Source: Limnomonas spitsbergensis (taxonomy: Eukaryota; Chlorophyta; Chlorophyceae; Chlamydomonadales). Taken from it: a DNA stretch of 64,000 nucleotides. The translations under genes were made by a program, and so were the position numbers. Below, in pieces: positions 628-57,577 of the stretch (positions are counted from its first letter, which is position 1; each line of letters opens with the position of its first letter). The DNA is taken from NCBI GenBank assembly GCA_037349105.1, contig JAYJMM010000114.1:4517501-4581500 (forward strand), written 5' to 3'. The notes under the pieces were generated by a model. That model saw only the letters and a program-made list of their open reading frames with translations, was not told where the DNA came from and did not search any database.

Positions 628-701
628 CTTTGCTGCTGGCAGGACTCCCAGCTCCTTGAGCAGCTCCGCATACAGGCGTGCGACGGTGGTCTTTCCCGTC
701 C
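628..701 (-). CDS. Exon 36, second half of AAA+ Walker A
   Basis: Codes TGKTTVARLYAELLKELGVL then PAAK; acceptor GCTTAG, donor GTGAGC, phase 1 in and 0 out. TGKTTVAR.YA.LL...G is characteristic of CbbX/SpoVK. The gene continues past the left edge, so Walker B and sensor motifs are not in the window. Confidence 0.92.
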
Positions 702-3700
702 CTAAGCAGAGGACACAAAGTGGGGGTCAGGTGTTTTCTTGGGTGTCTGGATTATAGGGCCTGCCTCACAAGGCAATTTGGCCACAGGCCAGCTGCCTGA
801 ACCAATAAGACAAACACAACAGGCCTGGTGCCCTGAGATCTCCACATTCCTAGAGCCAAGATCCCCAGATCCCCAGATCTGCATATCCCCAGGGCCCCTG
901 GACTGCATGAACCAAGATCCCTATGTTAACATACCCCCATATCTGTGTATGCCCAGCTCACAGATCGTTGTAAGCAGCTCACTAGGGCCCCGGAAAAAGG
1001 CCTTAGGTGGTTGTGTCAACTATGTAAGATAATTCCATGCGTAGCCTGCGTCATAAATGCAAGGCGTCTGCCCGGTCTGCTGCAGACCCTGTACCCTCAA
1101 CCCTTAGCTGCATCATCAGGGCAACCCCTTCTGCTGACGACCCTGTACCCTGTACCCTCGACCCTTAGCTGCATCATCAGGGCAACCCCTTCTGCTGACG
1201 ACCCTGTACCCTGTACCCTCGACCCTTAGCTGCATCATCAGGGCAACCCCTTCTGCTGACGACCCTGTACCCTGTACCCTCGAACCTTCGCTGCATCATC
1301 AGGGCAACCCCTTCTGCTTGCTCTGCTGAAAAATCCGACCCTCCCTGGTCCTCATCCGCCACCCTGTTTACTCCCATTTGCTTCAGCTACAATTCAGCTA
1401 CACTCAAGCAATGCTTCAGCTACATCAACGCTGAGGATCGGGATATAGCTCGGAAACATGAAAACAGCCCGCCTTGTCTGGGTTCTGTTGAAGCACGTAT
1501 TGTACTGCTTACTCAAGAGTGGCATGCGTGACATGTGTGACATGCGTGACATGTGTGACATGAGTGGCATGACTCATGCGTGACATGAGTGATATGAGTG
1601 ACATAAGTGAAATGACTCATGAGTGACATGAGAATAGCCCGCCCTACCTGGATTCCCGTAGAAGCAAGCATTGTATTGCTTGCTCGAGAGTGACAGTTTT
1701 CGCTCCTTGTCCAGGTCCACCTGCGCAAAAGCATGCGCCAACGTCAGATTTTAGGATTTGCGGTTTAAGGTTGTAGATTTAGGGTCAACCTGAGTGAAAG
1801 CATGCGACCAATGCCAGCGTTTAACGTTTAAAGTTTAGGGTTTATGTTTAGGGTCAACCTGAGCGAAAGCATGCGCGCCACGTCAGGGTTTAGGGCTTAG
1901 GTGCGCACTGGACCACCTTTGAGGGCCTGCCGGGCAGCCAGCGCTAGGTGGAAGGACGGGGAGGGAGGGAGGGGGGCGTAGCCAGCGCTAGGCGGAAGGG
2001 CGGGGAGGAAGGGAGGTGAAGAAAGGGGGGGGGGAGGGACTGGAAGAAAGGGGGGGGAAGAGGGGGGAGGGGCAGCCACCTCCCCCCCCTTCCTCTCCAC
2101 CCTCCCTCCCTCCCGGCGGAAGGGCGGGGAGGGAGGGAGGGTGGAGAGGAAAGGGGGGGAGGAAGGGGAGGGAGGAAGGGGGGGGGGGGGGGAGGGAGGG
2201 AGGGAGGGAGGGGAGAAAAAAGGTGGAAAGGGGGTAGGGGCAGCCAATGCTAGGCGGAAGGCGGGGAGAGAGAGAGAGGAGAAAGAGGGGGGGGGAGGGA
2301 GGGGCAGCCAACGCTAGGCCGAAGGGGAGGGAGGGAGGGGAGGAATGGAGGGGGGGAGGGAGGAAGGGCATCCAGCGCTAGGCGGTAGGGGACATGGGGG
2401 TGGGGTCGAAACCAGGACCTCTAACCACAGGTCCTGAAACAACAGGTCAGTGTGAGAATGGTAACGGGTCTGTAGTAGGTTCAACAACAGGTACCAAGCT
2501 AGATCTCAAGAAGATTCCTATGCAGGTATCTGTGGAGTGGCCACAAACCGTTTTTCAACTTCAGAAAGGGGCTTTTCGTCATCAGCAATTTGGCCTTTTA
2601 CAACGGGGCCTGTAGACCAGGCCCTTTCAGCTACTAATTGAGTTTGAGTGAAAGTATAGCTGAACTTTGGCTGCAGTGTAGCTGAAGTGTAGCTGACGTG
2701 CAGCTAGAGCTTGCCTGAAGCACCCTGAAATAAAAGAAAGGGTTGACAACTAATGGAGAAGCAGGAAAGCGGGGGCCCCAAGAAGGCAGCACAATGCTTG
2801 TATTTGAATTAGAATTTGATTCCGCCGACCGTCAACGATCGGTGCACATTACCTTATCTGCCAGCTCCGCCAACGCCTGCTTCACAGGCGCTAGGCCTGT
2901 GAGCTCGAGCACCTTCTTGAACGTTGCAGTCTTCTCAGCCCGCAGCTCCCAAGCGGCCTGAGAATGCCATGGACACAGAATTCGCAGGCCAAATCAAAAT
3001 TCGAATTCAAATTTGAAAAACAAGGCTTGCACTTCAAGAAATTCGCCCAGTCGATCTAAAACTTGAATGCACACACACCCTGCGCAACAGAGGTACTTAG
3101 TTTAGGGTTCAGGGTTTTGTCTAGCTTGGTCATGTGGCACGTCTTGAACCTTAGTCTTCTAGCGGATTTAGATTAGCTTAGTCTTTTAGCTTAGTACTGT
3201 ATCGGATTTAGAAAAGCTTAGGCCTGTAATGGATTTAGACTAGCTTATTCTTGTATCGGATTTAGACTAGCTTATTCTTGTATCGGAGTTAGACTAGCTT
3301 ATTCTTGTATCGGAGTTAGACTAGCTTAGTCTTGTAGCGGAGTTAGATAGCGAGTTAGACTAGCTTAGTCTTGTAGCGGAGTTAGACTAGCTTAGTCTTG
3401 TAGCGGAGTTAGACTAGCCTCCTCTTGTAGCGGAGTTAGACTAACTTCGTCTTGTATCTGAGTTAGACTAGCTTAGTCTTGTAGCGGAGTTAGATAGCGA
3501 GTTAGACTAGCTTAGTCTTGTAGCGGAGTTAGACTAGCCTCGTCTTGTAGCGGAGTTAGACTAGCTTCGTCTTGTAGCGGAGGTAGACTTGCCTCGTCTT
3601 GTAGCGGAGTTAGACTAGCTTAGTCTTGTAGCGGAGTTAGACTAGCCTCGTCTTGTAGCGGAGTTAGACTAGCTTCGTCTTGTAGCGGAGTTAGACTAGC

Positions 3701-6700: not shown

Positions 6701-9700
6701 CCGTTGCACGGAAGTCCCCGAGCTTGGCGATATTGCATCCAAGCACCTCAAGGGCTTTCCTGGCCGGGCGAGCAGGTGGCAGGTGGAGGGCGAATGGCTA
6801 TCTCAGTAATTTATATTTGAATTGACAGTTTGAGTTTTGTGCAACTGCTGTTTGTATTCAAAGTGTCATGTGGAGGGGTGACGGCTAGTTTTGCATTTCG
6901 TATTTAAATTGACAGGTGGGGGGGGGGGGCGACGGCTAATATTGTATTCTGTATTATAGTTCACAGGCGGAGGGGGCGACGGTAAAATTTTAAATTTTGT
7001 TTAGTTTACAGGTTGAGGGGGAACAGCCAATTGTTTTTAAATTGACTGTGGAGGGCGACGTCTACTTATTTACTTTGTATTGTAACTGACAGGTAGAGGG
7101 GGCAAGACTGTTCTCCACATCACACATCACACCTTCTCAACCACTCTGGCAGCTGCTCAGCCTGAGGATGCAACAGGTACGCTAGCGCCTCCCCCGCTGC
7201 CCGAGCAATGGACGCGGCGCGGGTGCTGATGGAGTTGCGGTCCTGTCCCGATGAGGTGGCCTGCCGATGCTGCAATAGGACGTACAGCAAGCCAGCAAGG
7301 GTATGAGACGTAAGCAAATTGCTACGATAGGACGTACAGCAAGCCAGCAAGGGTATGAGACGTAAGCAAATTGCTACGATAGGACGTACAGCAAGCCAGC
7401 AAGGGTATGAGACGTAAGCAAATTGCTGCGATAGGACGTACAGCAAGCCAGCAAGGGTATGAGACGTAAGCAAATTGCTGCAATAGGACGTACAGCAAGC
7501 CAGCAAGGGTATGAGGCATGCGGTATTCTAGACAATGGGCGAGGACTGCGAGCAAAATGCTGCTATGGAGTTTGTTAATTGCATGAATTGTGCACTAGTG
7601 TAAAATTTAATTGCAGGACTCCGTTGCAGGATTTAATTGCAGGACTCCGTTGCAGGATTTAATTGCAGGACACCGTTGCAGCATTTAATTGCAGGACTCC
7701 GTTGCAGGATTTAATTGCAGGACACCGTTGCAGCATTTAATTGCAGGACTCCGTTGCAGCATTTAATTGCAGGACTCCGTTGCAGGATTTAATTGCAGGA
7801 CTCCGTTGCAGCATTTAATTGCAGGACTCCGTTGCAGCATTTAATTGCAGGACTCCGTTGCAGCATTTAATTGCAGGACTCCGTTGCAGCATTTAATTGC
7901 AGGACACCGTTGCAGCATTTAATTGCAGGACTCCGTTGCAGCATTTAATTGCAGGACTCCGTTGCAGCATTTAATTGCAGGACACCGTTGCAGCATTTAA
8001 TTGCAGGACACCGTTGCAGCATTTAATTGCAGGACTCCGTTGCAGCATTTAATTGCAGGACACCGTTGCAGCATTTAATTGCAGGACTCCGTTGCAGCAT
8101 TTAATTGCAGGACTCCGTTCACCGGTTAAACATTGATTTGCAGAGCACCAGTGTACAATTTAAATGCAGTTCGCCGGTGTACGATCTAATTGCAGTACCC
8201 TGGTGTAGCATTTAATTGCAGTACACCAGCGCAACGCTTTATTGCATTAAACTGGTATAGGAATTTTTTGCTTTGCTTTGTGCGCCAGATTACAAAATAT
8301 AAATCTGGAAACAGGGAGTGAGAAGACAACGATTTTATTATCGTTTGAATCATGACATTTTTTTCTGGAAGGGTTTTTGCAGCCTGTGCCCATGCAATTT
8401 TGTCTCAGCCCTGCCACAAATTTCTGAAAGGCTGCCCTCATATGCATAACGAATCCCACACATCTGCCCTCCCACACATTCACACCTCCACGACTTCACA
8501 ACCACCCAGGGGCAAAGCCAATCCCACCCTTCCACACCTTCCACCCTTCCACCCTTCCAGACCTGAACAAGGGCACTCGCGAGGTGCAGAGCCGGGTGCT
8601 GTCGGCGTTCCGTGTTCGACGATCCGTCAGCAGCTTCACCGCCTCCCGCCATTGGCACCTGGGGTCAGAGGATGAATGGAGCATGTTAGGACAATCCGGC
8701 TATATTAATAAATAAATCATCGATCCACACTAGGCTATACCGTTGCTATCATGTTGGTACGATCCAGCTTAACCTGTACTGTATCACGCTATACCATGCC
8801 ATACCTGACCCCTGTACCCCTTTACCCCTCACCCCCATCACCCCCATCACCCCCCTTACCCCTACACCCTTACCCCTACACCCTTACCCCTACACCCTTA
8901 CCCCTACACCCAGACCCCTACACCCAGACCCCTACACCCTTACCCCTACACCCTTACCCCTACACCCTTACCCCTACACCCTTACCCCTACACCCTTACC
9001 CCTACACCCTTACCCCTACACCCTTACCCCTACACCCTTACCCCTACACCCAGACCCCTACACCCAGACCCCTACACCCTTACCCTTACACCCTTACCCC
9101 TACACCCTTACCCCTACACCCAGACCCCTACACCCTTACCCCTACACCCTTACCCCTACACCCAGACCCCTACACCCTTACCCCTACACCCTTACCCCTA
9201 CACCCAGACCCCTACACCCTTACCCCTACGCCCTTACCCCTACACCCTTACCCCTACACCCAGACCCCTACACCCTTACCCCTACACCCTTACCCCTACA
9301 CCCAGACCCCTACACCCAGATCCCTACACCCTTACCCTTACACCCTTACCCCTACACCCTTACCCCTACACCCAGACCCCTACACCCTTACCCCTACACC
9401 CTTACCCCTACACCCAGACCCCTACACCCAGACCCTTACACCCTTACCCCTACACCCTTACCCCTACACCCTTACCCCTACACCCAGACCCCTACACCCA
9501 GACCCCTACACCCTTACCCCTACACCCTTACCCCTACACCCAGACCCCTCCACCCTTACCCCTACACCCAGACCCCTACACCCTTACCCCTACACCCTGA
9601 CCCCTACACCCAGACCCCTACACCCTGACCCCTACATTCTAAACCCTGAGCACTGAACCCTTAACCCCTGATTAACGTCGCAGGGGTGTTAAAACGGGGA

Positions 9701-12700
9701 AGACTTGACGCAAGACGAAAACCCACCGGCAGAAGCCGTCGCCGTTTGGCGTCCGGCAGGCCCAGGTGGACCCGGCACAGCTCCAGTAGCGCGCCAGCCG
9801 CCGCCGCGCCGCCCGCCCCCTCAGCCTCCCTGGGGCAGCTGCTTATCCCCACCGCCGCCGCCGCCGCCACCTGCGCCTCCACGGCGGCGACGGCCTCTGT
9901 AAAGTACTTGAGAGCGTCGACCCATTTGTCCTCCTGGATCAGGGAGAGGCCTCGGGCCACAGACTTGGAGGAGGGGTCCGCCCTGGGCGCGCCCAAGCCC
10001 TGTTGGGAGGGATTCAAATGGTGTGGTCAGGGATCAATGAGTCATCCTTAATGGGAGACGTGGAGGGGTCTGCCCGGGGTGTTACTGCACCCAACCCCTG
10101 CTGGGAGGTTTTTGAAGTTTAAAATGGAGTTTTGCGAGGCCTCGGGCCAGAGACTTGAATGAGGGGTCGGCCCTAGGCGCACCCAAGCCCTGTCGGGAGA
10201 GATTCAAAGTTTCAAATAAACGGAGGTTTGAGGAGCCTTAGGCCAAGGGCCTGGAGGGGTCGGCCCTAGGCGCACCCAAACCCTGCCGGGAGGGATTCAA
10301 AGTTTCAAACTAAGTTTTGAGAAACCTTAGGCCAGGGCCTCAGCCTATCTCAGCTATGACACGTTGCACACTTTTCCCTGCCCAGCGCGTACGATCATGC
10401 CCGACCGGCCCTCGCATACATAGACGAGCAAGTCACATGATACCCTGAGTTGTGGACATGATACCCTGAGTTGTGGACATGACGCCCTGAGGTGTGACCA
10501 TGATGCTCTGAGGTGTGAACATGATACCCTGAGGTGTGGACATGATGCCATGAGGTGTAGACATGATGCCCTGAGGTGTGGACATGATGCTCTGAGGTGT
10601 GGACATGATGCCCTGAGGTGTGGACATGATGCCATGAGGTGTGGACATGCTACCCTGAGGTGTGGACATGCTACCCTGAGGTGTGGACATGTTGCCCTGA
10701 TGTGTGGACATGATGCCCTGAGGTGTGGACATGATACCCTGAGGTATGGACATGATACCCTGAGGTGTGGACATGATACCCTGAGGTGTGGACATCATGC
10801 CCTGAGGTGTGGACATGATACCCTGAGGTGTGGGCATGATGCCCTGAGGTGTGGACATGCTACCCTGAGGTGTGGACATGTTGCCCTGATGTGTGGACAT
10901 GATGCCCTGAGGTGTGGACATGATACCCTGAGGTGTGTTCATGATGCCCTGAGGTGTGGACATGATGCCATGAGGTGTGGATTAGGGCAGCTACCCGCCT
11001 GAGTAAACCCTAAACCCTAAGACCTAGACCCTAAGACCTAAAGCCTCTGCCTGGCCATGATAGCAATGGGTAGGTTGCCGATCGACCTGCCTTTGCGTAT
11101 CTCAGCAGGATGTCCCCGAGCCCCGACGAGTGGAACAGCACGTCCAGCGTCCCAGCTGCGTCCGGCTCGGCCGCTTTCAGAGCCGCCCGCAGCGCCTCAA
11201 AGCCGCCGCTGCCACCGCCACCACCGCTGCCGCTGCCGCTACCGCCGCTGCTGCCACCGTTGCCGCCACCCTGCTGAGGCCCGTCGGGGGAGGAGACGGC
11301 AGCGGCCACGGCATCCTTCCAGACGCTCACCTGCGAGGAGCGTGAGAGGGAAAGAGAGGGGGAGGGGAATGTGAGAGAGGGCAGGGAACTTGAGAGAGGG
11401 AGGGGATTGTGAGGGAGTGCAAGGAGCGTAACAAAGAGCAGGAAATTTGGGATTTGGCAGCGTCTTCGAGCTGGCTTGCACCTCTTACCATGTCCCCCAC
11501 TTTTGTTGACATGAAGGGAACGCCAAAGAGCAGGTGTCGCAATTGCCGCACCTGCTCTGACTTGGCGAGCATTCCCCCTCCACTATCCCCTACTTGCGCC
11601 AACATGCAAAGATTAACAAAGAAACCTTAAACCCTCAATCCTCAACCCTTAACTAGGGCAGCCGAATTTGGGTTCTACCTTAAACCCTGAATCCTCTCCT
11701 AGTCTCCTTCCCCCCCACTCTTGCCAACTTGCGGAAATGAGGGAGCAGGAATCGCGATCTGGGCACCCTCTCTGAATTGGCTAGCTTCCTCTCCCGTGCC
11801 CATATTTGCCGACTTGCAAACGATATGAAAGCAGGCGTCGCCAGGAATCTTTTAAATGGTTACTTATTATTACGAGTCGTAACCAAAGTGGTGACTGAAT
11901 AATTAATTCAGCGAAGCCTGGGTTCATCAGTCGTGCGGTACAAAAAAAACGTCGACATCAATTCGAATCGGGAACTCGCCTACTTCTGGCTACTCCATCA
12001 TTAATTCCAAATGCCACGAGAAAGAAAACTGGGCATCGCAATTTGGCCCCTCCCTGACTAGGCTAGGATCCCCTCCCTCTCCCGTGACGTCATCGCCTTC
12101 ACACATAGCACTCAGCCCACTCACTCCGCAGAAGGACCTAAGTCCCGGCTGGTCCCTAAACCCTAAACCCTAAACCCTAAACTAGGCACTAGTTTAGGGC
12201 TTAGGGGTAAGGGCCTAAACTAGGTAACTTATTCGGCTCAGGGTTCAGGGCAAGACCCTAAGCCCACACGTTACCCACGCCCACTCGTCGTACGCCTCAC
12301 CGTCGCGTAATGGTGAGCCTTGCTGCCCGCAAGCGCTCCAACCTTCGCGGCCTGGTCCCCGGCCAGCGCCTCCGCGCGCATCTTCCCGTTGTGTACCCTC
12401 TGCAGCGCCTCGTCCTGCCTGCGGTTCAGCGCCTCCAGCTGGCGGCTGGTGGCTGCCAGATCCTCCCTGGCTCTCTTGGCCTCTGCGTGGCGCCGTGCTT
12501 CCGAGTGCTGCGGTTAGGGTTAAGGTTAAGTGTGAAGATTCAAGGGTTGAGGGTTAAGCGTTTAGGATGTGCGGGCTTAGGCAGGCCTAGTGCGCCGCAC
12601 CTCCGAGTGCTGCGGTTAGGGTGTGGGTGGGTGGGTGGGTGGTGACGGTGTGGGCCTTTGGGTAGTTGGTTGGTGATGGTTTAGTTGGGTAGCCGGTTGA

Positions 12701-15700
12701 TGGTGTGGGCGGTTGGCTGGTTAAGGTTTCGGGTGGGCAGTCGATTACGGTGTGGCAAGTTGGTCTGTTATGGCTTCAGTTGGATTAAGTTAAGTTCAGG
12801 AAACAGCGCAGCCTGGGCCAAAGCCACATCTGCGCATTACAAGCAAATGTTGAGGGCCGCGCCGCCTTATCACCGCTGGACCTCCAGATACCAATCACGG
12901 CGGCGCTGGGGAGGGGGGGGGAGGGCAGCGGTGAACCGACAGACGCACCCCGGTTTGCGGATTATGGCCAACAGACAAATATTGGGCAGAGTATCGGGTC
13001 ACAGGGGGGACCCCAATCGCGGAGCTGGGGGGGGGGCCAACGGTAAACAGCCACACCCCCGTTTGCGGATTATACCGGCCAAAAGTATTAGGTGCCTTTT
13101 CCTCCAGCCCCTGCTGACAGGAGAGGGGGCGAGGCCTTCAGTGCGCCTACAAGTTTTAGGGTAAAATGTTAAGTTTTGTTTTTATGGATTATGCGGGTTT
13201 AGGGTTCATAGATTCTGGGTTTAGGGCTCTCGTGGATTTTGCGGATTTGGGGGTGAGGGCGGCGCTCAAGGTGGCCGAATGCTGATCGGGAAAGGTGGGT
13301 CCTTCGTTCTGCCTTTTCCTGGTACACGGCGGAAAGAGGAGGGAAGAAAATAGTTTGCCTTTTCTAGTACAATAAAAAGGGAAGAAAAGAGTCTGCCTGT
13401 ACTTGTACACGGAGGAAAGCAAAGGGAAGGAAAGAGTCTCTACCCTTTCTGGTACAGAGAAAGGAAAAGGGAAGAAAATGAAATTGTCTGCATTCTCACT
13501 TGTACAAGCCAGACGGAAGGTCTCACCTTTCCCACCATGTCATAATGGGCGCTGTCACAGTAAAAAACGTTCCACACAAGTAGGTGCCCCCTGGTGTCCA
13601 CACTTTTACCACCACCACCGCGCCCGCCCCCTGATCTTCGCACTTTTTGCTCGGCTAGCTTCTCGCGCTCAACGCGCGCAGCAGCTTCCAGGTCGGCCAT
13701 CTGCTCGGCAGCCTTGTGCCGCCGCTCCTGCTCCCACGTTGCCATTTCAGAGGCGCTCAACTGCCTCTGAAGAAAGTGATAAAGTGAAGGAGGTGGGGGA
13801 AAGTGTGAGGTGGGGAGATAAGTGCTGCTCCTGCTCCCATGTGGCCATTGCAGAGGCGCTGAACTGCCCCTGACAAAATATATAAAAGTGAATGAGGCAA
13901 AGGAAAGTGTGAGGTGGGGAGGAAAGTGTCGCCGCCACTGCACCCACATGGCCTTTTCAGAGGCGCTCAGATGCCTCTGATAAGTGATAACAGTGATGGA
14001 AGTGGGGGGAAGTGGGGGGAAGTGTGTGAGAGAAAAGTGTCAGTGTTCCCGCTCCCATGTGGGCAGATCAGATGCGCTCAACGGCCTCTGGTCAAAACTG
14101 ATCAAGTGATATAAGTGGGGGGGAGTGAGAGGGGAGAAAAGTGTGAAACGTTTGAAAATGACCTCCCTCCACGCAGGTCCACATCCCCATACCTGCAGGT
14201 CCACACCTCCATACCTGCACGCCCACACCTCCATACCTGCATGTCCACACCTCCATACCTGCAGGTCCACACCTCCATACCTGCAGGTTTATACCTCCAT
14301 ACCTGCAAATCCACCTCCTTCTCGAGAACCGCCTTGTCGAGCTCCATCTGGACAGACGCCTTCCTCGCCTGGCGCGCCTCCTCCAAAGCGGCCTGCTGCC
14401 GCCGCAGCCGCCTGATGCTGGCCTCGAGGGAGGCGCGCTCCTTCTCCGCCTCGGCGCGACTGCAGGCCGCCTCCTCTTCCTGAGCAGCAGCAGCAGGGCC
14501 GTCGTGCGGGTTTTCTGACCAGTGGCTAAGAAAGAAAGATAATCACGCCTTCCTGGGGCATTAAGGGAACAGCGCAGCCACTGGATGGCGGCAAAGAGGG
14601 AGGCACGCTCCTTTCTCCGCCTTAGCGCGGCTGTGGGCCGCCGATTCTTCCTGAGGGGTGGCAGGGCCATCATCACGACAAGACCGGCCAATGCCCCCCC
14701 CCCCATATGACGACAGTGCCGTACGTCATTCAAGATGAAAAAGAAAGGAAGAAAACTATATGCCTTAGTGGGGCGTGAAAAGATTAAGGAAGCAACGCTG
14801 GATGGCGGCCAAAGAGGGAGGCACACTGCTTCGCCGCCTTTGCACGGCTGTGGGCCGCCGCCCCTTCCTGAGGGGCGGCAGGGTGACGAAATCATCAGCA
14901 TAGCTTCCAGCGCATTTTTTCCTTTGAATATTTGGTATTACACCGGATATTCTAAATATCAAGTAAAAAAAGGCCACACAAGTACCGGGTACCGGTATGT
15001 CTTAGTCTATGTGTAGAAGCAACATTTTTCGATGAATCCCGAAACGTTTTATTGTCACGTTAATGCCGTAAAAATGAGCAAGCTTAGAGCATAGTAATGC
15101 ACAAACCTGAAGGATTTGGGGGGCTAAAAGAGTGGAGATGCTCGATCGTAACCCTTAACCCCTGTATGGGGTGTAATGGAGCTAAGCTCATGAAAGACCT
15201 TCAGTCGGAAAAGTTTTTCCCTCTTTTGTCTGAGCCTGAAGTTCCTCTAACTTTCGAACCCACCCACCCTGACGTCCGCTTTAGCTTCTGATGCTCCTTG
15301 TTACCCTGGAGCACCCCTTGGGCCAGCGGCTATTGGGCTTTTCACTGCGCTCCAAACCGTCAGTTTGTCCCCTCTGAAGAGTTACGAGTCGTCTCCGGTT
15401 CAGTGTTAGCAGATTTATTTTTGCTCCGAAACCGGCCCCCCCGACACTGGTTTCACTTTCTGAGGGCAGGACCCTCTACTAAACTGTGAACTGCTTGTGC
15501 AAGCTTGAGGAGTAGGATGACCGCAGTTTAAAGCGCCGACTTTTCTGACGGACCTTTTCACCCAACTATTTATAAACGGGCAGTGATGATACTGTAGTCT
15601 CAAACTGACTCTATCTCGGAGACTAATGCCAATCTGAGCCCCCCAAATTTTGAGATCCCCCCCCCCCACTTTTCCAGCTCACACTCAAATGGACATGAAA

Positions 15701-33700: not shown

Positions 33701-36700
33701 ACGGGACACTTGACAAGCCCGGCGGCGGCAGCGGCGGCGGCGGCGGCGGCGGGAAGGGACCGCTCGGCGTGTCAGGCGGCGGAGGTGGCGGGAGCGCACC
33801 GCTCTGCTCGCCCAGCCGCGGCGGTGGCGGTGGGTATGGGCCGTTCTGCTTGCCACGATTCTCACCAAGGCCAGCCATGCCGCCACCTCCCCCGCTGTTT
33901 CCAGCGCCACTACCGCCGCCTCCGCTGCCGTTGCTGTTGCCGCCATTGCCGGTGTTGTTGCCTCCCCCGCCGCCGTTGTAGCCGCTGCCGCCGTTGTAGC
34001 CGCTGCCGCCGTTGCTGTTGTTACCGGCCTTAGGTGGGTCGTGCCAGGCCTGCATGCCGGCCTTGCGTGCGGTGCCGGGGGACGTGGAAAGAAGCAGCTT
34101 CTCAATTTCCTGGATCTGAAGAGGAAGGTCGGTATGGACACAGCGGGTGAGTGGTGCTAGGGGGTGCGGTGAGTGGTGCTAGGGGGTGCGGTGAGTGGTG
34201 CTAGGGGGTGTGGTGAGTGGTGCTAGGGGGTGCGGTGAGTGGTGATAGGGGTGCGGTGAGTGGTGATAGGGGATGCGGTGAGTGGTGCTAGGGGGTGCGG
34301 TGAGTGGTGCTTGGTGGTGTGGTGAGTGGTGCTAGGGGGTGCGGTGAGTGGTGCTAGGGGTGTGGTGAGTGGTGCTAGGGGGTGCGGTGAGTGGTGCTAG
34401 GGGGTGCGGTGAGTGGTGCTAGGGGGTGCGGTGAGTGGTGCTAGGGGGTGTGGTGAGTGGTGCTAGGGGGTGCGGTGCGTGGTGATAGGGGTGCGGTGAG
34501 TGGTGATAGGGGTGCGGTGCGTGGTGCTAGGGGGTGCGGTGAGTGGTGATAGGGGGTGCGGTGAGTGGTGCTAGGGGTGCGGTGAGTGGTGCTAGGGGGT
34601 GCGGTGAGTGGTGCTAGGGGGTGTGGTGAGTGGTGATAGGGGTGCGGTGAGTGGTGCTAGGGGGTGCGGTGAGTGGTGCTAGGGGTGCGGTGAGTGGTGA
34701 TAGGGGTGCGGTGAGTGGTGATAGGGGGTGCGGTGCGTGGTGATAGGGGTGCGGTGAGTGGTGCTAGGTAGTGCGGTGAGTGGTGCTAGGTTGAAGAGGT
34801 AGGTCGGGCTGACTTGGGTAAGGGTTGGGTTAATGAAATTTTGAGTTCAGGGTTACGGGTGAGGGGATAGGAATAGGGTTTGGAGTTCCTTTAGGGGTCC
34901 AGAGTTAAGGGTTCATTATGAGAGGTTGAGGGTAAGGAATTGAAATTGGGTGCTTAAGCCTGGATAGAGCTGCTGTGGGTCGAGCGGTTCTCATGCCTCC
35001 TACTTTGGCGGAGGAGTAGTATTTCTTTCTTTCTTTCTTTCTTTGGGGCTCAGGGTTTAATGATAAGAGTGGAATCGACGGCCCTGGATTTGATGTAAGT
35101 CGGGTTGGGTCGCAGACCATGTGTGATTTTAATTTCTGTGTACCACTTCGCAGTGTACGCACTGGACCGTGTACCGTCCAAAAGGAGCCCTGCCTGGGAC
35201 TGCACCTGCGTCTTGGTCGAGCGCTCCACATCCCGGAGGCATGCCATCCGCCTGGCCTCGTTCATGGGCAGGGCGACCCTGCGCCCTTGGTTGGCAGAGC
35301 CCATGACGCTGAACAGGTTGTACTGCTCTAGCCTCTGGCTCTTGCTGCGGCCGCCGATGCGGATGACGCTCGTCACACCCTGAAAGGCGTTTTGGGTTAT
35401 AACAGTTAAGGGTTTAGGGCTTTGGGTCACACTTTGAAAAAGCACAATCGGTGCAGCAGGAGGTCAGGTAATCTGGCACCCGATAGTTCAGCACCGCACC
35501 AGTTGGCCATACAATGCTTTTGAATTCGAATTCGAATGTAACTGAATGTGATTAACGGGGAAAGTCCAATCGCTTTGAATCGACCACGGGTCACTTCCCA
35601 TTTCTGCATTTCGTGTCCCACCTTGTCGAGCAGCGCCTCCAGGAACTGATCGAGCGCATGGTTTGTGTAGCAGACGCACAAGAGAGTCTCCTGGGAGCAG
35701 CGCACAATCGCCTCGGCAACCAGGGCGCCGACGTACGTCTTGCCTGTGAAGTGCAGGCAAGATTCATGAAGCGCCCAGGGTCTTGAAACAGGGCCCATGC
35801 ATGACGCCCCATGGTTAAAAGGCCAAGAAGGTAAAAACAAATTAGTTTTCCTGTTTTTAGAATAAACAATGGCCCGTGCATGACGGCCCGTGCATGACGC
35901 CCATGCATGACGCCGATGCAGGAGGTCCCATGCAGGAAGACCCATGCATGAGATCCCATGCAGGAAGACCCATGGATGAAGACACATGCAAGAGGCGCCA
36001 TGCATGAGGTCCCATGCAGAAGGTCCCATGCAGGAGGGCACATGCAGTAGTTCCCATGCAGTAGTTCCCATGCAAGAGGTCTCATGCATGAGAAGCCATG
36101 CAGGAGGTCCGAAGCACAAAGCCTTATGGAGGAGGACTTATTCAAGAGGTCACATGCATGAGGTCACATACAGGAGGCCCAATGCAGAGGGACTTATGCA
36201 GGAGGTCACTTGCGGGAACACCCATGCATGAGGTCCTATGCACGAGGCCCCAGACAGGAGGTCCCATGCAGGAGGTCCCATGCAGGAGGTCCCATGCACG
36301 ATGACTAATGCAGGAGGGAGCATGGACTGGACTCACCAGTGCCAGGCAGACCCTTAACCCTAAACTCTAAACCCTAAACCCCAAACCCTAAACCCTAGAC
36401 TCAACGGTGCCAGGCGGACCCTAAACCATAAACCCGAGCCCCTAAACCATAGACTCACCGGTGCTAGACGGACTTCAGACCATAAACCCTAACCCTAGAC
36501 TCACCGGTGCCAGGCAGACCCTAAACCCTAAACCCTAAACCCTAAACCCTAAACTCACCGGTGCCAGGCAGAGCCAAAACCCTTAACCTTCAACCCTAGA
36601 CTCATCGGTGCCAGGCAGACCCAAAACCCTAAACCATAACCCGTAGACTCACCGGTGCCAGGCAGGCCCAAAACGCTAAACCCTAAACCCTAGATTAACC

Positions 36701-39700
36701 GGTGTCAGACGGACCCTAAATCCTAAACCCTAACCCCTAGACTCACCGGTGCCAGGCAGACCCTAAACCATAAACCCTAACCCCTACACTCACCGGTGCC
36801 AGGCGGACCCTGGATGAGAGCCACACTCTGTGAAAGTGCTTGGCTGAGGGCCTGCTGCTGAGTCGGGTCCAGGTGCAGGTTTGCCTGCAGCTCCTGCAAA
36901 CGCAGGGTCATAACAGCAGGAGAGGCATTTGCATCAACACGTTATACACTAGATGAGGGAGGAGGAGTCTGGTTCAAAGTATGAGAAGGCAAACATGTGG
37001 CATGCAGGTTCCATGCCAAGAGAGCCCGCTCTCACCTTCTCAACAGCTTCCCCGCTGAGGCATTCTGGATCTACCGGTGGGTCCAGGCGCACAATCTGGT
37101 CGGCGAGGGGCACCGTGGCCATGCTCTGGAGGCAGCTGAGCAGCGGGCTGATGCTGAAAAAACTGGTTGAGATCTGAATGCAGCAATGCGGTAAGTGCAA
37201 GGAGCAATGAGAAAGGAGCAAAGTTTCAGCATAAAGTTTCAACATAGAGTTAAAGGAGCAAAGGTTCAGGATACGGTAGTCATGCACACACCTGAAGGAT
37301 TTGCTTGATTGGGACCCTTTAGCCTTGTGCGGGGTATATAGGAGCTGGTGGCCCACTGCTAAGCTTAAACACTAAACCCTATACCCTAAACCCTAAACCC
37401 CAAACCCGAAACCTTAAACCCTAAACCCTGCATAAAGCGCACTTAATTTGCCTCACCTGCACCAGGCTCATGTCCCTAGGCTGCCCCTGCCCAATCATCT
37501 GCAGCACCGCCTCGACGTCCTGCCCACGGTCAAAGGCGAGGCCGATGACGGGGTTCTCCTCCGCCAGCTCCTTGACGTCTCGGCGGCCGATCGTGGCAAA
37601 CACCATCAGCGGCCTGGTCGAAGTAGAGGAGCTCCCTCCGGCATTGCTGGGTCTGTACGCGATAATGGACGAGTACGAGGATGAGCATTAGAGTGTGTGT
37701 GTGTGTGTGCGCGTGTGCCTGTGTGCGTGTGTGCCTGTGTGCGTGTGTGCCTGTTGGCGTGTGTGCCTGTGTGCGTGTGTGCATGTGTGCGTGTGTGCCT
37801 ATGTGCGTGTGTGCGTGGGTGCGCGTGGGTGCGTGTGTGGTGCGTGGGTGCGTGCGCGTGCGTGGGTGCGTGTGCGTGCGTGTGGCACCGGCACCGGCAC
37901 CGGCACCGGCACCGGCACCGGCACCGGCACCGGCACCGGCACCGGCACCGGCACCGGCACCGGCACCGGCATCGGCATCGGCATCGGCATCGGCATCGGC
38001 ATCGGCATCGGCATCGGCATCGGCATCGGCATCGGCATCGGCATCGGCATCGGCATCGGCATCGGCATCGGCATCGGCATCGGCATCGGCATCGGCATCG
38101 GCATCGGCATCGGCATCGGCATCGGCATCGGCATCGGCATCGGCATCGGCATAATTAAATAGAGGAACATGCTTAACTCTTGAGCATGAACTCCCGCACA
38201 CACAATATATCGCTGGAAAAGTCACCTAAGGGTGGGGGACTCCCAACCCATCCCCCGGCTTATATTGCCTGACATACTGTAGTGATACGATAATGTGGTG
38301 ATACATAACAAAATACTAACATTGGTGAAATAACTATATTGTATTTAATGAAAATGGTGGAACAAATGGTTCACCTGCACACCAAGCACACCAGCGCATC
38401 GAGCGGCAGCGTGCCCCGCCCGTGGTCCGCCCAGAACTCCTCGCGCTCCTTCATCTGCATGCGCGCCACGCGGTGGCTCCGCGGCAGCTCCACCGCGACC
38501 ATCACCGAGGGACGGGGCTTCTCGGCCACACCCAGCACCGCCACCAGCGGGAACACGCTCCGCTGGAGCGCGGCCGGCAGGGGCGCGGCGACGGCGTCCT
38601 GCGTCGTCGCTTGCTGGCCGTTGAGGTGCATGGCTTTGACCACCTCGCGCAGGCCGCCCATCATGTCTTCACGCATCAGCCTAGATGATCGGGAACCATC
38701 GAAAAGGCGCAAGGAAGTCAATTTATTGAAGACCATTGTTTTCCCTCGCTGCTCTTCTTTAATCACTCCCTGAAAAATGCTCCAAGAATAAAATTTGGGT
38801 ATTTTTTCTGCCGGCAAGCGAAAAAAATGTTAAGTATTGTATACTAAATATTACTAAAAACACACAGCGGATCTCGTTTTTTATAATATTTATAGGCATC
38901 GGCAATATTATATAGTATATAAAGTATATAATACATTATATCATATATATAAGAATTCGGCATATCAGATATACTTTATATTAAGTCGCGAAAATCCCGG
39001 ATGTCGCGACTGAAACGTGGAAATACGGCATTTCAGCTACTGGGGGCCTGCTTGTGAGACAAGCGCATGTGTTCTCGTCCGATTCTATACTCCAATAATA
39101 CTCGTGTTACCTGGAATGGCCCCTAAGAAAGTAAAACGATCTATCTTTCTCAACAACTCGCAACTGCACTTAGGGACCGAGTGGGAGCCTGAGGCTCTGT
39201 GTGCCGAGCTGAATAAGATTAAGCGATTTTGGAACAATCTCTATTCCGTCGTCCTGGGCGAGGAGAACGCTGGCGATGCGTGTTGCTACCTTCAATGCAA
39301 AGGCTACGGGCAGAACTTGTCGCCGTCCAACCCATCTGCTGCAGTCAAGGCGCATTCAACAACATGTGCATCCATCGAGACGCGTCAAAGCCCCAGAAAG
39401 TGCGCTGCCTCTCGCGCCAGCCGGACTTTGAAAAGGTTTCTCTGCATTATTACTCTTACTGACTTGAGAACTTAGGAATAGTCGCGCTATGAGTCTCAAA
39501 TGTGTGCCTATTGATCATGCAGTGGTACTATAACTGAATGAACTACCGGACCAGACCTGCCCCATTTTGCGAACCCGCGAACCGCGTCAAACAAATACGG
39601 TGTCTTTATGTTTTGGGGTCTTGGCTTTCTTAGAAGGGACGAGTTAGCTGCATATCCTGAATGCCCTGATTAAGCTGAATCCATACCTCAATTCTTTTAG

Positions 39701-39823
39701 TTTGGGCCACTTTTTCCTGACTTGATATGCTATATATATGATGATATATATTATATACTTTACATTGGCGGGGCATGTCAAGTATATTGCCGATGCCTAA
39801 ATATTTAGTATTATATATATAAA

Positions 39824-39894
<71 letters not shown>

Positions 39895-40200
39895 TAAACG
39901 TCCCTGAAGTTTTGAACGAGTTTGCGCATTTGCGGGTACCTATCCGTTGCCTCAAGTCAATCAGGTTACAAATCTGGGCCTTGCTCAAGTGCCTTATGGC
40001 AAAAGCAAGAGTTTAGGGTTGAGGGTTAGGGGTTGAGATTTGAGGGTTCAGAGTTGAGGGTCCAGAGTTGAGGGTTGAGGGTTCACAGTTGAGGGTTCAG
40101 AGTTGAGGGTTCAGAGTTGAGGGATCATAGTTGAGGGTACAGAGTTGAGGGTTGAGGGTTCGGAGTTGAGGGTTCAGAGTTGAGGGTTGAGGGTTCAGAT

Positions 40201-40239
<39 letters not shown>

Positions 40240-40550
40240 GGCTGAGGGCTGAGGGCTGAGGGTTGAGGGCTCAGAGTTGAGGGTTCAGAGTTTAAGGTTG
40301 AGAGTTGAGAGTTGAGGGTTGAGGGCTGAAAGTTGAAAGTTGAGTGGTTGAGGGTTGAGGGCTGATGGTTGCGGGTTGCGGGTTGCGGGTCAGGGTCGAG
40401 AGTTAAGGGCTGATGGCTGATGGCTGATGGCTGATGGCTGATGGCTGAGGTTTGAGGTTTGAGGTTTGAGGTTTGAGGTTTGAGGGTTGAGGGTTGAGGG
40501 TTGAGAATTGAGGGTTGAGGGTTGAAGGTTGGGGGTTGAGGGTTGAGGAT

Positions 40551-40638
<88 letters not shown>

Positions 40639-40647
40639 GGTCAGGGT

Positions 40648-40679
<32 letters not shown>

Positions 40680-40688
40680 GGTCAGGGT

Positions 40689-40720
<32 letters not shown>

Positions 40721-40870
40721 GGTTCGGAGGTGAGGGTTGAGGGTTGAGGGTTCAGGGTTCAGGGTTGAGGGTTGGGGGTTGAGGGCTGAGAGTTGAGGGT
40801 TCAGAGTTGAAGGTTGAGGGTTGAGGATTGAGGGTTGAGGGTTGAAGGTTGAGGGTTGAGGGACGAGAGT

Positions 40871-40923
<53 letters not shown>

Positions 40924-43900
40924 GGTTAAGGATTAAGGGCTGAGGGTTGAGGGTTGGGGGTTGAGGACCGAGGGTTCAGAGTTGAGGGTTGAGGGTTAAG
41001 GGTTGGAGGTTGAGCAACTAGGGTTAGTTTGGGCCAGGGTGCTGACATCACGGCAGCGTCAGCGTGACGTCACTCCTGTCTCACCTGAACTGCCTGTCCA
41101 TCAGCGCAGCCTCTGAGGAGGACAGGTGGGAGTGTTCCCCTGCACGAGGGAGGAAGGGCTGCCGCACACACAGAGCCTGCACAACACAGGAACACGTGAA
41201 ATAATCCATGGACGAGGTTCTCCTGCGCTTCTCTGTGCTTTTTGTCCTGCCTTGATTTCTGCTGCCTTGGTTCTGTCTGGGCCTTCTTGCCTTTCAGCCT
41301 TTTGTTCTGCCCTTGTTGCCTTTTATTCTGCCTTGGTTTCTGATGCCGGTTGCCCCCCCCGTTCCCTCTGCCTGGCCCCTCTAAAAATTGTATGTGGGGT
41401 GGACTCGTTTACTTTGTGACAAGAACAGCGCCTTTCATCGCGGCTCAGCTACATTTCAGCTACGTTTCAGCTACATTTCAGCTACACCTTAGCCTCCAGC
41501 CGGAGGCCTGCTGCACGGACAGCCATGCTGCTTGGGCCTGTGCAAGGTCCCTTGACCGATCAAGGTTTGGACCCAATCGGGCATGTGGCAGCCGTGTGAA
41601 GCTTTCAAAAGGATTGGTGCTGAAATTTTCTTGGAGCTGAAAGATCAAAACTAGCCATGACGCTATGTACACGCAGCCGACACACATCAGACTCAACCCT
41701 GAACCCTATATCCTGACCCCTAAACCCTCAACCCTACATCCTGACCCCTCAACCCTCAACCCTAAACCCTACATCCTAACCCCTGAACCCTTAGCCCTAA
41801 ACCCTACATCCTGACCCCTGAACCCTAAACCCTAAACCCTACATCCTGACCCCTAAACCCTTAGCCCTTAACCCTAAAAAGTTTCTCACCTCGTCTGCTG
41901 TTGGGATGATCTTGATAGACCTGCATGCAGGATTGTGACGCGTCAAACAGGTTAATGACGTTACACCTCTGGAACATGTTGAAACGAATGACGCTACACC
42001 TCTGGGCCATGTTGAAACGAATGACGTTACACCTCTAGGCCATGTTGAAATGATTGACGTTACACCTCTGGGCCATGTTGAAACGAATGACGTTACACCT
42101 CTGGGCCATGTTGAAACGAATGACGTTACACCTCTGGGCCATGCTGAAATGAAACTCGGCCACGTCGGCAAGCAAAAGGTCAGCTAGGTAAGTCAAGGGA
42201 GAAGGCACTCGTCAAACAGGTGGCTGGTGTCCTTGTTGTTTTTTCGGTCCTTGGCGGGTCCCTCTAAGGTTGGTATCAGAGTGCACTTTGGGTCCCTCTA
42301 GAGATTTTAGGGTGAAAGGTTAAGGGTTTAAGGTTTAAGGTTCAGGGTTTAGGGTTAAGGGCTAAGGGTTTAGGGTTTAGGGTTAAGGGTTTAGGGTTAA
42401 GGGTTAACGGTGTAGGGTTTAGTGTTTAGACCAGGACACAATTCAGAGCAGGTTCAGATTTTCCTGGCTGGTCTTGATGTTATGAAAACGCAGCTACTAA
42501 CATGAGGTACAGGAGGAAAAGCCAGTCAATCGTAGCAGCGGTGGGAACTCCCTTCAACTGCTAACCGTCGTTTGTTAAGGGGCCAACTGCGTGCAACAGA
42601 GACGTGTTTTGGCAGGCTCCTGGGCGGCCGCCACTGGGCCGATGGGGACCTTAACATACAGCCAAAGGCCCAGGCCGCAGGCACCTTGCTGGAACAGGCG
42701 TTCCCCCCTGGCCCTCGCCTTGTTGTAGCTGAAATGTAGCTGAAGCACCTCAAATCTAAACTGAACTCTGAAAGCGAGTTTGACTAAACCCTTAAATAAA
42801 GAAGAAAAAAAAACGCCAGTTGAACCAACCCTAAAATAAATAATGATGTAGCTGAATTGTAGCTGAAGCACCCCAAACTGAAACTCAATCCTACGAAACA
42901 GTTTAACCCTAAATCATAAAACCTGCAATCAGACCTGAAGTCATGGTAATCATTGTCGTGCCGACCTCCCGGACCGGCATGCAGATCCTCCAGCGCCAGC
43001 AGGGGGGCGGAGGGGCCGGACGCTGCTGCCGCCTCAGCTGCCGCCGCCGCAGCCTCCGTGCCGGCCAGGACAACACGCATGGCCCGGCCTGCCTTGGCCG
43101 CAGCTCCCTCGCAAGCCACGAGGAGGTCGGCAATCAGCTGCATCTCGGGATCCTTACGGGCCTCTTCGTCCTGCGACCGGATGTCAGTGCCGCAGCAAAA
43201 GCAATCTTACTCGTAATACTAAGCAATACGGCATACAGGTCGGCGATCAGCTGCATCTCAGGATCCTTGCGAGCCTCTCTGTCCTGCGGCAGATGAACGG
43301 CAGAAAGAAAGGGCGGTCAATGACAGATGTCCTAGCCCTCGTGATGGGGACCAGCAGCGTGACATCAAGCCACGACGAGGCCGGCGATCAGCTGCATCTC
43401 GGGATCCTCACATCTTTTCGAGCTTCTTCGTCCTGTGGCGGGATGTCAGAGGGTGTGCTGTCCCCCATATCCCTGCAGCAGTCCTTATAACCCTAAACCC
43501 TTAAGCCTCAAACCTAAACGGAGGTGCAGGTCGGATACAATTGCCTTACACTGACCCTAAACCCTAACCCTTAAACTTACACACTTAGACTAACCCTTAG
43601 CTCTAACCCTTGAACTTCCACACTTAGACTAACCCTTGACCCTTACCCTTAAACTTTCACACTTAGACTAACCCTTGACCCTAACCCTTAAACTTACACA
43701 CTTAAACTAACCCTTGACCCTGAACCCTTAGCCATAACCCCTAACCCCGACCCGTTGACCGCAATCAGAGGTGCAGGTCGAATGCACTGACCTTAGACAC
43801 CAGGGTCAACGCAATCCAGGGTTTTCGCAAACCAGGGTCAATGCTTAACAAGGGTAGCCCCCAATGGTTGCACGTAAACGGAGTGCAGGCTGGATGCACT

Positions 43901-46900
43901 GACCTTGGACACCAGGGTCAACGCAAACCAGCCGACTGGCGCGGCATCGGGGATAACGCCCGCGGCCAACGCCTTCCGCATGATTGCCAGGAGGCCGGGG
44001 ATGCGGTACAGCTCCCCCAGCAGCTTCAGAAGAGGCTCCCTGGGTCAAAGATGGCGGCAGTTGAAGCAGGACAGTTCCGAGGACCAGGAGTGGGAATTTT
44101 GAGGGGAAATTAGGAGTGGGAATTTGGAGTGGAAAGTTTGAGTGGCGCGGCATCTGGAATCATGTAGGCAGCCAACGCCGTCCTCCGCGCAATCGCCAGG
44201 AGGCCGCAGATGCGGTACAGGTCTTCCAACAGCTTCGGAAGGGGTGCCACAGTCAGCGACAGTTGGAGCAGGAAAGCATGAGCGGACGGGACAGAGTGGA
44301 TGCGGCCCTCGGGTCGTAGGAACCCTAAACCCTAAACCCTCCACATTATGACCCTGAACCCTAAACCTGAACCCTGAACCCTGACACGTAAAACCTGAAT
44401 ATTTACACCCTGAACCCTGAACCTGAACCCTAAACGTGAATCCTAAAGCTGAACCCTAAAGCTGAACCCTAAAGCTGAACCTGGTGGACGTGCCGCACTG
44501 CATGGCTGATCCCCAGGCTTGCCTGTGCATGTTCTGGTGCACCTATCACGGGACTCATCTAGCCCAGCATCATAAAAGAGGCTGTCATGCTCCGCGCTGT
44601 AGTAGGGGGCTAGCTAGCCCAGGGAACACGCACTAGCTGGCCAACAAAGAGCTCTTTAGTTATGAAGAATCTTTTTTTGTTAGGAGTCCACCGCGGCCGC
44701 CGAAGGCCCGATTGGGACCAAACCTGGACCGGCCTACGACTGGTTGCAAAAGCAGGGCATGGCTGTGGCCACAAATGGGGCTTTCGGCCAGAGGCTGGCG
44801 TGTAGCTGACATGTAGCTGAGTCGAGAAAAATAAACGTTGATGCTCTGGCCCTTGATGCATTTAGGGCATCTAGGGCCTTGTCTGAAAAACAACTTCAGC
44901 TTGGCTGCATGCTCCAGTGCACATGTTGGAGGACTCATCGCTGCCCAGCATGAAAAACGGGCCTTTTGATACACCAACCCGATAAATAGAAGGCCTCCCT
45001 TTTTGAAATCATACTTGCCTGCACATGCTCCAGTGCACATGTCGTAAGACATAATTGCTGCCCTGCCTGCAAAATGGGGCCTTGATCAAATGACCCAGCA
45101 CATGTAGGACCTACCGTTGTTTAGCCACAGGCCTGCATGCTCCAGTGCAGCTGTGCACATCCCATGCACGGCCCAGCATTGCAACAGGGGCCTTAATGCA
45201 CTGGCCCATTCACATTGAAGGTGTTGTAAATTTTATTTGCCTTCCCTCATAATTGAAGTTGTCTGGGGAATCCAAGAATTTACTTTTTGTCGAGTGTCAA
45301 CGCCAGTTATCAGTCGGAAATTGAGATTTCTTGTTGTGGAAAGTTTGCCCTGAGGGCAACACAAAAGTCACTCATTTTTTGATGCCCAAAGGAAGGCAAA
45401 GTAAATCAAAATAAATCTACAGTATCTAGGGCATTTTTCGACCTTGATGCACTGGCCCGGTACATTGAAGGTATATAGGGCCTTTCATTTTTCATCCCAC
45501 TTGCCTGCATGCCCCAGTACACATGCCGTTGTTGCCCAGCATGGCCAGGCAGGGGCCTCAATGCACCAGCCCGGTCCATTTGGGGCATCTAGGGCCTCCC
45601 TCTATTTTTATCCCACTTGCCTGCATGTCCCAGGACACATGCCGTCGCTGCCCAGCATGAAGAAAAGGCCCTGATGCACTGGTCCGGTCCATCTAGTGCC
45701 CCTTGTGTGTGTTTTTAATTCACTTGCCTGCATGTCCCCGTGCACATGTCGTCGCTGCCCAGCATGGCGAGGAAAGGGACCAAGTGGTTCCAAACGTGGT
45801 CATCGCTGTCGTCGCAGGACAGGGCTCGACGCAGCCGGCCCAAGGCAAGCCCGTTCTCCTGCAGGGGTAACAGCACGAAAGAGTGGATCCAAGATCCTAA
45901 ATTAAAAAGCTGGATTAAATGGGAATGCATTCACACTCAAGATCACACAGGCGGTCCTAGCAATTATCTTAGGGCTTAGGGTTTGGGCAAGTTTGGGCTA
46001 CAGGTTATCAAGTGCTCACATATATGGTGCCACAGGCAGTCCTAGAAATCAAGGGATTCGTGTTTGGGGTTTTCAGGGTTTAGGGTTTGGGGTTTGGTAT
46101 TGAGTGTTCACAGATATGGTGCCACAGGCAGTCCTAGCAGTTAAGGGATTCGTGTTTAGGGCTTTGTTAAGAGGTTTAAGGTTTAGCTTTAGTGTTATGT
46201 TCGCGGCAAATGGATGCTGCAGGGCCGCTAGCAAGTTCAAAACATGCATGCAATCAAACATGACAACGGCAAGGACGCAGACAGGCAGACTCTACTTCCA
46301 TCAATGCTTTGAAAGAAAGGAAGAAAGCTACGCCCCGTGGGAGGCGTGAGAGTTAAGGAAACAGCGCAGCCCCGGCCGGAGCCACATCCGTGCCGTCACC
46401 AAATCAATGGTTTGGCCCACATGAGCTTCGTGGCAGGTGCTGTGCTTTGAATGGTTTGGTGAGAATCAGCGTGAATAGCTCCACTTGATGAGGTCAGCCA
46501 TCACATCAGACAAACAGCCATTCCTTCCCCCTCCAAAATGCTGGAGGGAAAAACGAATCCTTGCCACTGTCCCGGTTCTAGGCATCCTAAGCTTTTCGAA
46601 TTCATTGCCGGGATTCAACAGAGGGTCATTGTAGGTCGGGGTTAAATGTGTAGGCCTTGGGGGTACAATTCAGGGTTTCGTGTTGACGTTTCTAGGGGTT
46701 TGGGCCGAGTTTTTGGGTGTATATTTCAGGGTTTAGGACTGAGGTGTTGAGGGTTTGGACGCCCTTTTGCCTGATTGAGATGGCCAACTATCTGCAGTAC
46801 AGCAAGGACTCTTCGGTTCGCTCTGGCTGTCCCTTTCGCGAAAGGCTGAGGGTGGCTGCGTCAACTTAGTAACAACAACTGGGAGGACCCTACAGCCCTG

Positions 46901-57492: not shown

Positions 57493-57577
57493 GAGTGGAT
57501 TTTCTTGCTGTGCTACTGGTGCGACCGCGGCGCTGTAGAAGCGAAGTACAGGCTGCCACCAACAACGCTGTACCGGC

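Follow-up and report, generated by a model that had tools for sequence, protein, structure and literature searches.

Tandem copies of exon edges in the introns of a ZNFX1-like helicase gene of the green alga Limnomonas spitsbergensis

Copies of exon edges, together with the adjoining splice sites, were found in the introns of a ZNFX1-like helicase gene of Limnomonas spitsbergensis. The gene was studied in one stretch of 64,000 nucleotides, called the window below, and the copies are referred to as echoes. We showed that the echoes are real and lie far above chance. They are stretches of genomic DNA that span a splice site and were duplicated locally in tandem. The echoes are probably mirage-type minisatellites, that is, the junction-spanning members of local tandem duplications occurring throughout the gene, which were retained as echoes. 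This reading was weighed against a duplication process that favours splice junctions, a regulatory role of the copies, an origin in intron gain and an assembly artefact.

The helicase gene and its echoes

The gene model on the minus strand consisted of 36 exons and 35 introns between window positions 48030 and 628, with 1969 codons and 0 stops. The gene runs beyond position 1 of the window, and the 36 exons are the part within it. Its product is predicted to be a ZNFX1/NFX1-type helicase on the basis of the Pfam domains AAA_11 and AAA_12 and of tblastn with Chlamydomonadales proteins. The Pfam search was performed with the first 1546 residues, taken from an earlier model, and gave AAA_12 at 6e-40 and AAA_11 at 2e-20. 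In the last two exons a CbxX-type AAA domain presumably starts. The earlier model was also the query of a protein search in which 8000 candidates were scored. The top match was from Chlamydomonas eustigma, with 69% identity across 41% of this 1546-residue query. Further green algae, among them Gonium and C. reinhardtii, came next among the best 120 of the 2398 matches. Among the matches listed, the nearest relatives of the helicase thus appear to be Chlamydomonadales green algae.

Support for the exons was obtained by tblastn with Chlamydomonadales proteins, for which the matches of 3 of the 6 query proteins were used. Thirty of the 36 exons were matched, some of them weakly (E1 and E15 at E ~0.01). 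E5, E13, E14, E16, E31 and E33 had no clean match to the three proteins and were placed by splice sites and frame. Exons near 41.6, 32.1, 13.3 and 11.5 kb in early models were false, and they were removed by comparison with relatives. The median exon length in the 36-exon model was 141.5 nt, and the median intron length was 1050 nt. GC stood in place of GT at 4 of 36 donors, those of E2, E17, E20 and E29 (exon ends 45728, 28030, 23518 and 11091). The usual share of GC donors is about 1%, and the share in this gene is high. In the case of E29, an alternative end at a nearby GT is possible. Rfam gave no match at gathering scores across the window.

Echoes were counted using a 50-nt window at each junction (25 nt on each side), which was aligned locally to the adjoining intron over at most 1.5 kb. 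A score of at least 20 was obtained at 23 of 70 junctions, corresponding to 10 of 35 donors and 13 of 35 acceptors. Shuffled queries gave mean scores of 6.5-13, compared to the threshold of 20. Windows of 30+20 nt returned the identical 23 junctions. A query of 50 exon nucleotides alone returned 16 of 70, and one of 10 exon and 40 intron nucleotides returned 21 of 70. In a stricter count, a 60-nt query was used and a copy had to include 6 nt or more on either side of the junction. This gave 22 junctions with 65 copies, namely the donors 2D, 3D, 10D, 13D, 19D, 22D, 23D, 24D, 26D and 35D and the acceptors 3A, 4A, 15A, 18A, 19A, 22A, 25A, 26A, 27A, 28A, 30A and 35A. The acceptors 24A and 32A were found in the first, looser count alone, and 3A in the stricter count alone. 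The original prediction that copies of exon edges lie beside many junctions of this gene was therefore confirmed. Its list of affected exons agreed with ours when exon numbers were allowed to differ by one or two. It had also stated that splice dinucleotides are often kept, and canonical letters were present in 56 of the 65 copies, with GC donors counted as canonical. The positions are given in Table 1.

Table 1. Terminal exons of the model and echo sites in the window
Feature	Position	Strand
E1, first exon of the model	48030-47854	-
E2 donor echoes, 4 copies, GC kept in 3	44517..45778	-
E3 acceptor-side copy (44276-43940) and two E3 donor echoes (43792, 43545)	43545..44276	-
E4 acceptor echoes, 2 copies, AG kept	43112..43449	-
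E10 donor echoes (Walker A exon), 9 copies, ~47-bp unit with TTTAGGG-like stretch	36337..36811	-
E13 donor echo, 1 copy; E13 without clean tblastn match	33067..33591	-
E15 acceptor echoes, 2 copies	31529..31909	-
E18 acceptor echoes, 4 copies, ~110-bp unit	26967..27691	-
E19 acceptor echoes, 5 copies	25444..26039	-
E19 donor echoes, 9 copies, spacing 90-131 bp	24289..25362	-
E22 acceptor echoes, 6 copies, ~95-bp unit	19392..20091	-
E22 donor echo (19172) and E23 donor echo (18535), one each	18535..19268	-
E24 acceptor echo (18427-18273, looser count only) and E24 donor echo (17866)	17866..18427	-
E25 acceptor echoes, 3 copies	16026..16460	-
Echoes of E26 acceptor (2), E26 donor (2 counted) and E27 acceptor (3)	13716..14883	-
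E26 donor, 22-bp unit array	14173-14314	-
E28 acceptor echo, site at 12609	12507..12640	-
E30 acceptor echoes, 3 copies, ~93-bp unit	10087..10334	-
E32 acceptor, 52-bp unit array extending to the acceptor (looser count only)	7268..7515	-
E35 (1720-1648), acceptor echoes (2) and donor echo (1478)	1456..1892	-
E35 acceptor, 69-bp unit array	1714-1892	-
E36, last exon in the window	701-628	-

Origin and divergence of the copies

The copies at the 23 junctions of 70 were sense copies in the intron adjoining the junction itself. The search for junction copies was confined to this window. Antisense copies in the own intron were found at 0 of 70 junctions, copies in other introns of the helicase gene at 0 of 70 and copies in the intron across the same exon at 0 of 68. 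No joined copy was found for the 35 exon-exon 40-mers, which scored 26 of 40 at best; a match to one half on its own scores 20. Each repeat unit was contiguous exon and intron DNA. The spacing was regular in several arrays, with 47 bp at the E10 donor, ~95 at the E22 acceptor and ~110 at the E18 acceptor. Because the copies were direct, local and contiguous across exon and intron, and none was antisense, distant or joined, they are local tandem duplications of genomic DNA. The joined exons and the distant or antisense copies of cDNA- or RNA-templated copying were not found within the gene, and the earlier proposal of cDNA-linked repair was not supported.

The introns as a whole were rich in repeats. 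Approximately 57% of intron bases lay in local repeats at threshold 20, and TRF arrays covered 18,823 of 41,496 intron bases compared to 601 of 5,907 exon bases. When 2,000 random intron windows were used as queries, a copy was present on the tested side in 46%. This share was 22% without short-period and low-complexity windows, and 9% outside all TRF arrays. In a self-BLAST of the introns, 18 of 43 repeat families crossed a junction, some of them through merging of short arrays. The self-BLAST misses repeats with an offset below 86 bp and was used for large units only.

The telomere-like motif TTTAGGG occurred mainly on the sense strand and toward the 5' ends of introns (28, 17, 15, 6 and 8 by quintile), and CCCTAAA was rarer and lay later in introns (1, 4, 7, 3 and 9). 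TTTAGGG is present in several donor arrays, so that these counts by strand and position are not independent. A segment resembling a mobile element was located in intron 20 (21100-23209), with an inverted copy at 60853-62419 (92% and 85% identity). Retroelement remains were located at 56881-59242 on the minus strand, with RVT_1 at 5.8e-15 in an ORF at 57584-58381. The two ORFs neighbouring it gave no Pfam match.

Tandem duplications of genomic DNA with a spacing of ~20 to 250 bp occur all along the gene, and they may arise through slippage or through unequal exchange. We propose that selection would remove a duplication that falls within an exon, whereas one inside an intron would be harmless. 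In the case of a duplication spanning a junction, the exon-proximal copy would stay the working exon edge and the extra copy would land in the intron. The arrays would then lengthen and diverge like minisatellites, with the working copy held by coding and splicing constraint. Splicing would pick the exon-proximal copy through exon definition. A mild preference for junctions may add to uniform duplication.

The divergence of the copies was examined by codon position. The identity between exon and echo was 0.855 at position 1, 0.871 at position 2 and 0.742 at position 3. For a freely drifting echo and an exon that is frozen at the first two codon positions but not at the third, the identity at position 3 is expected near 0.863 squared, or 0.745. 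Since the identity at position 3 was close to the square of that at positions 1 and 2, the echoes drift as if neutral, each a freely changing copy of a frozen exon. In the nine arrays with at least three copies, the mean identity between echo and exon was 0.82-0.89, and the copies differed mutually, with few identical pairs. Adjacent echoes were more alike than non-adjacent ones in five of the arrays (E2, E18, both sides of E19 and E27), equal in two and less alike in two, as read from a single haplotype. The echoes were nearer to the exon than to neighbouring echoes in six of the nine. This pattern fits a frozen exon with drifting copies, and repeated copying from the exon edge would also give it. 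A distant copy in the array of the E18 acceptor matched the exon edge at 100% over the aligned window. Two copies nearer to the exon had other variants in common, as if copies had been exchanged.

The splice sites of the echoes were well kept. The dinucleotide identity was 0.892 as a per-family mean (P 0.037 compared to control arrays), and the identity of the splice core was 0.918. Each of these values slightly exceeded the 0.86 seen at the first two codon positions. The control arrays had no central bias (0.792 vs 0.802). We read the retention of the splice sites as the result of a frozen true site and drift, with at most weak extra retention. Thirty-five of the 65 echo sites combined a canonical dinucleotide with a score at least as high as that of the true site, on a scoring matrix built from the gene's own other sites. 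The offset of an echo was in frame in 20 of 65, about one third as by chance, and in frame and open in 6 of 65. Since only these six are in frame and open, the use of an echo would mostly truncate the protein, and the spliceosome therefore presumably ignores echo sites of equal strength. From the many echo sites as strong as the true one, and from the exon and intron lengths, we infer that exon definition selects the exon-proximal copy.

These data bear on the suggested regulatory role of the echoes, in which they would be maintained as decoys or as alternative splice sites. The 56 canonical copies, the 35 sites of at least true strength and the better-kept site surroundings (0.917 vs 0.792 in control arrays) would be in line with such a role. 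However, the frozen true site accounts for most of the retention, just as the frozen exon does at the first two codon positions, and the frame of the echo sites is close to chance. There was no good evidence for a regulatory decoy-site system, and we consider this explanation very unlikely. Even less probable is that the introns originated when exon sequence was duplicated in tandem, with exon copies left inside. This Rogers-type intron gain is discussed as a model for lancelet mirages (PMC3087553) and for a potato gene (PMC4974935), but across the 35 introns the two edges of an intron, donor and acceptor, were no more alike than permuted pairs (mean score 6.46 vs 6.74, SD 0.25), and matching sequence at the two intron boundaries was not found. 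Repeat arrays are error-prone in assemblies. However, the divergence of the copies from the exon and from each other and the intact coding frame across 36 exons make it hardly credible that the echo arrays are an assembly artefact.

Echo frequency at junctions and within introns

The original prediction had placed the centre of the arrays on exon edges. This was examined using a first-copy rate, the share of positions for which a copy lies further into the intron but not toward the exon, which avoids counting a whole array. The rate was 0.30 from exon position -20 to -6, 0.33 at the junction and 0.30 from +6 to +40. Further into the intron it was 0.27 (+41 to +70), 0.23 (+71 to +120), 0.27 (+121 to +200) and 0.22 (+201 to +300), and then 0.17-0.12. 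In the exon it fell to 0.22 (-21 to -40), 0.05 (-41 to -70) and 0.01 (-71 to -100). At threshold 30, the rate at the junction was 0.13, lower than the 0.17-0.19 from +21 to +120. With one window per intron side, controls 25-200 nt away gave 33-39%, compared to 33% at the junction. Thus, neither the distance profile of first copies nor the per-side controls had a peak at exon edges.

The expectation under uniform duplication was obtained by simulation. Exon-internal events were rejected, exons and splice sites were held, and the control was pooled from windows at 75-175 nt. Unit lengths, rates and copy numbers were assumed, and 60-70 genes were simulated per setting. The simulations predicted a dip at junctions, with a junction/control ratio of 0.63-0.91. 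Because of this dip, the near-junction control was dropped as a clean null. The addition of deletions and insertions raised the expected ratio from ~0.8 to at most 0.9. The observed pooled control rate was 0.24, or 0.19 without periods below 20; control rates depend on the weighting, one window per side or pooled, and the ratios of the simulations use the pooled form. The observed ratio was 1.37, 1.40 and 0.88 at thresholds 20, 25 and 30. When windows with a period below 20 were left out, which kept 67 of 70 junctions, it was 1.69, 1.66 and 1.14. Depending on settings and baseline, the share of uniform simulations that reached the observed value was 0.00-0.07 for the two lower thresholds and 0.07-0.48 for threshold 30. 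The original interpretation was thus supported in part: exon-edge copies were frequent and kept their splice sites, but a centring of the arrays on exon edges was not shown, as there was no peak. At thresholds 20 and 25 the ratio was nevertheless above that of uniform duplication.

Other baselines were also used. Compared to deep-intron baselines, the excess at junctions was 1.6-2.4-fold (P 0.016 to 7e-5), and across thresholds 20 to 37 it was 2.2-3.2-fold (P <=0.023). At threshold 34, 7 of 70 junctions were found where 2.2 were expected (P 0.007). The excess was gone at threshold 40, with 2 of 70 compared to 1.2 expected (P 0.32). These baselines contain inserted DNA, such as the mobile-element copy of intron 20, as well as conditioning effects, and were given less weight. 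A per-intron null, with 16-17 of 70 expected and 18-20 seen, was rejected as circular, since junction arrays belong to the intron with which they are compared.

These results may mean that the duplication process itself favours splice junctions, for example through breaks or R-loops tied to co-transcriptional splicing, at ~2- to 3-fold the intron rate. A two- to threefold boost at junctions simulated the observed ratio better than none, and a twofold boost fitted all three thresholds when periods below 20 were left out. With one window per side, the simulated ratio was 0.55 under uniform duplication and 1.13 under a threefold boost, and the observed 1.00 lay between the two; this simulation used 80-nt exon flanks and a control reaching to 200 nt, where an upward bias was seen. 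The deep-intron excess points in the same direction, as do the 18-20 of 70 junctions compared to a global ancestral intron estimate of ~10-11%, which merges telomere-like repeats. However, the distance profile had no junction peak, the per-side control was equal or higher, and the excess over the near control was weak or absent at threshold 30. The deep-intron baselines include the inserted DNA, and the simulation settings were assumed. We therefore regard a process that favours junctions as unlikely to be the main explanation. We hold as equally doubtful the wider proposal that junctions are ~2-3 times more duplication-prone than the rest of the intron genome-wide, with introns growing by spawning near-perfect decoy sites, dozens per gene, tolerated by strict exon definition. 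Because uniform duplication predicts a dip whereas the observed ratio at threshold 20 was 1.37-1.69, a roughly twofold junction preference may be real. With 70 junctions, one gene and assumed parameters, it is a serious hint and not a finding. Local tandem duplication throughout the gene is still the reading that we prefer, and in its uniform form alone it may fall short as a full account.

Relation to lancelet mirages

Mirage-type repeats are already known from lancelets. Passages of PMC3087553 describe 'mirage' minisatellites in the amphioxus genes Adh3, where Canestro et al. 2002 is cited as the source, and in the globins BflGb6 and BflGb9. PGBD5 and TnC are further amphioxus genes with mirages in passages of PMC3902484. 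According to the passages of both papers, the mirage unit spans the exon-intron boundary, donors and acceptors are both affected, and many but not all copies keep AG/GT. They also describe concerted turnover within the array from which the end copies are excluded, regular mRNA splicing that is unaffected, and somatic length instability.

The echoes of the helicase gene were similar in the first three of these respects. The repeat unit crossed the exon-intron boundary in the 65 copies at 22 junctions, donors (10 of 35) were hit as well as acceptors (13 of 35), and many but not all copies (56 of 65) kept the canonical letters. Turnover within the arrays was only partly visible here, with adjacent echoes closer in five of nine arrays. 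Unlike the lancelet mirages, the echoes occurred in a green alga and at many junctions (22-23 of 70) of one gene. The Rogers model, as discussed for a potato RdRp gene (PMC4974935), likewise involves tandem duplication that includes splice-site sequence. However, in that model a new intron is made, whereas here existing introns grow and their donor and acceptor edges are unlike. Ordinary minisatellites of these introns were like the echoes in their units and abundance, but in an echo array the copy at one end serves as a working exon edge and is held by constraint. Among the top-ranked open-licence literature we found no report of junction-spanning echoes in algae, and the mirage-naming papers examined concerned amphioxus only. 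What is new here is the green-alga lineage and the high density in one gene.

These results would extend a little-noticed phenomenon of lancelets to a green alga. The gene must still be spliced at one correct copy, despite echoes at about a third of its exon edges. Since 35 of its 65 echo sites equal or exceed the true site in score, the helicase gene is a natural test of how the spliceosome chooses among near-identical copies, and also of how introns lengthen.
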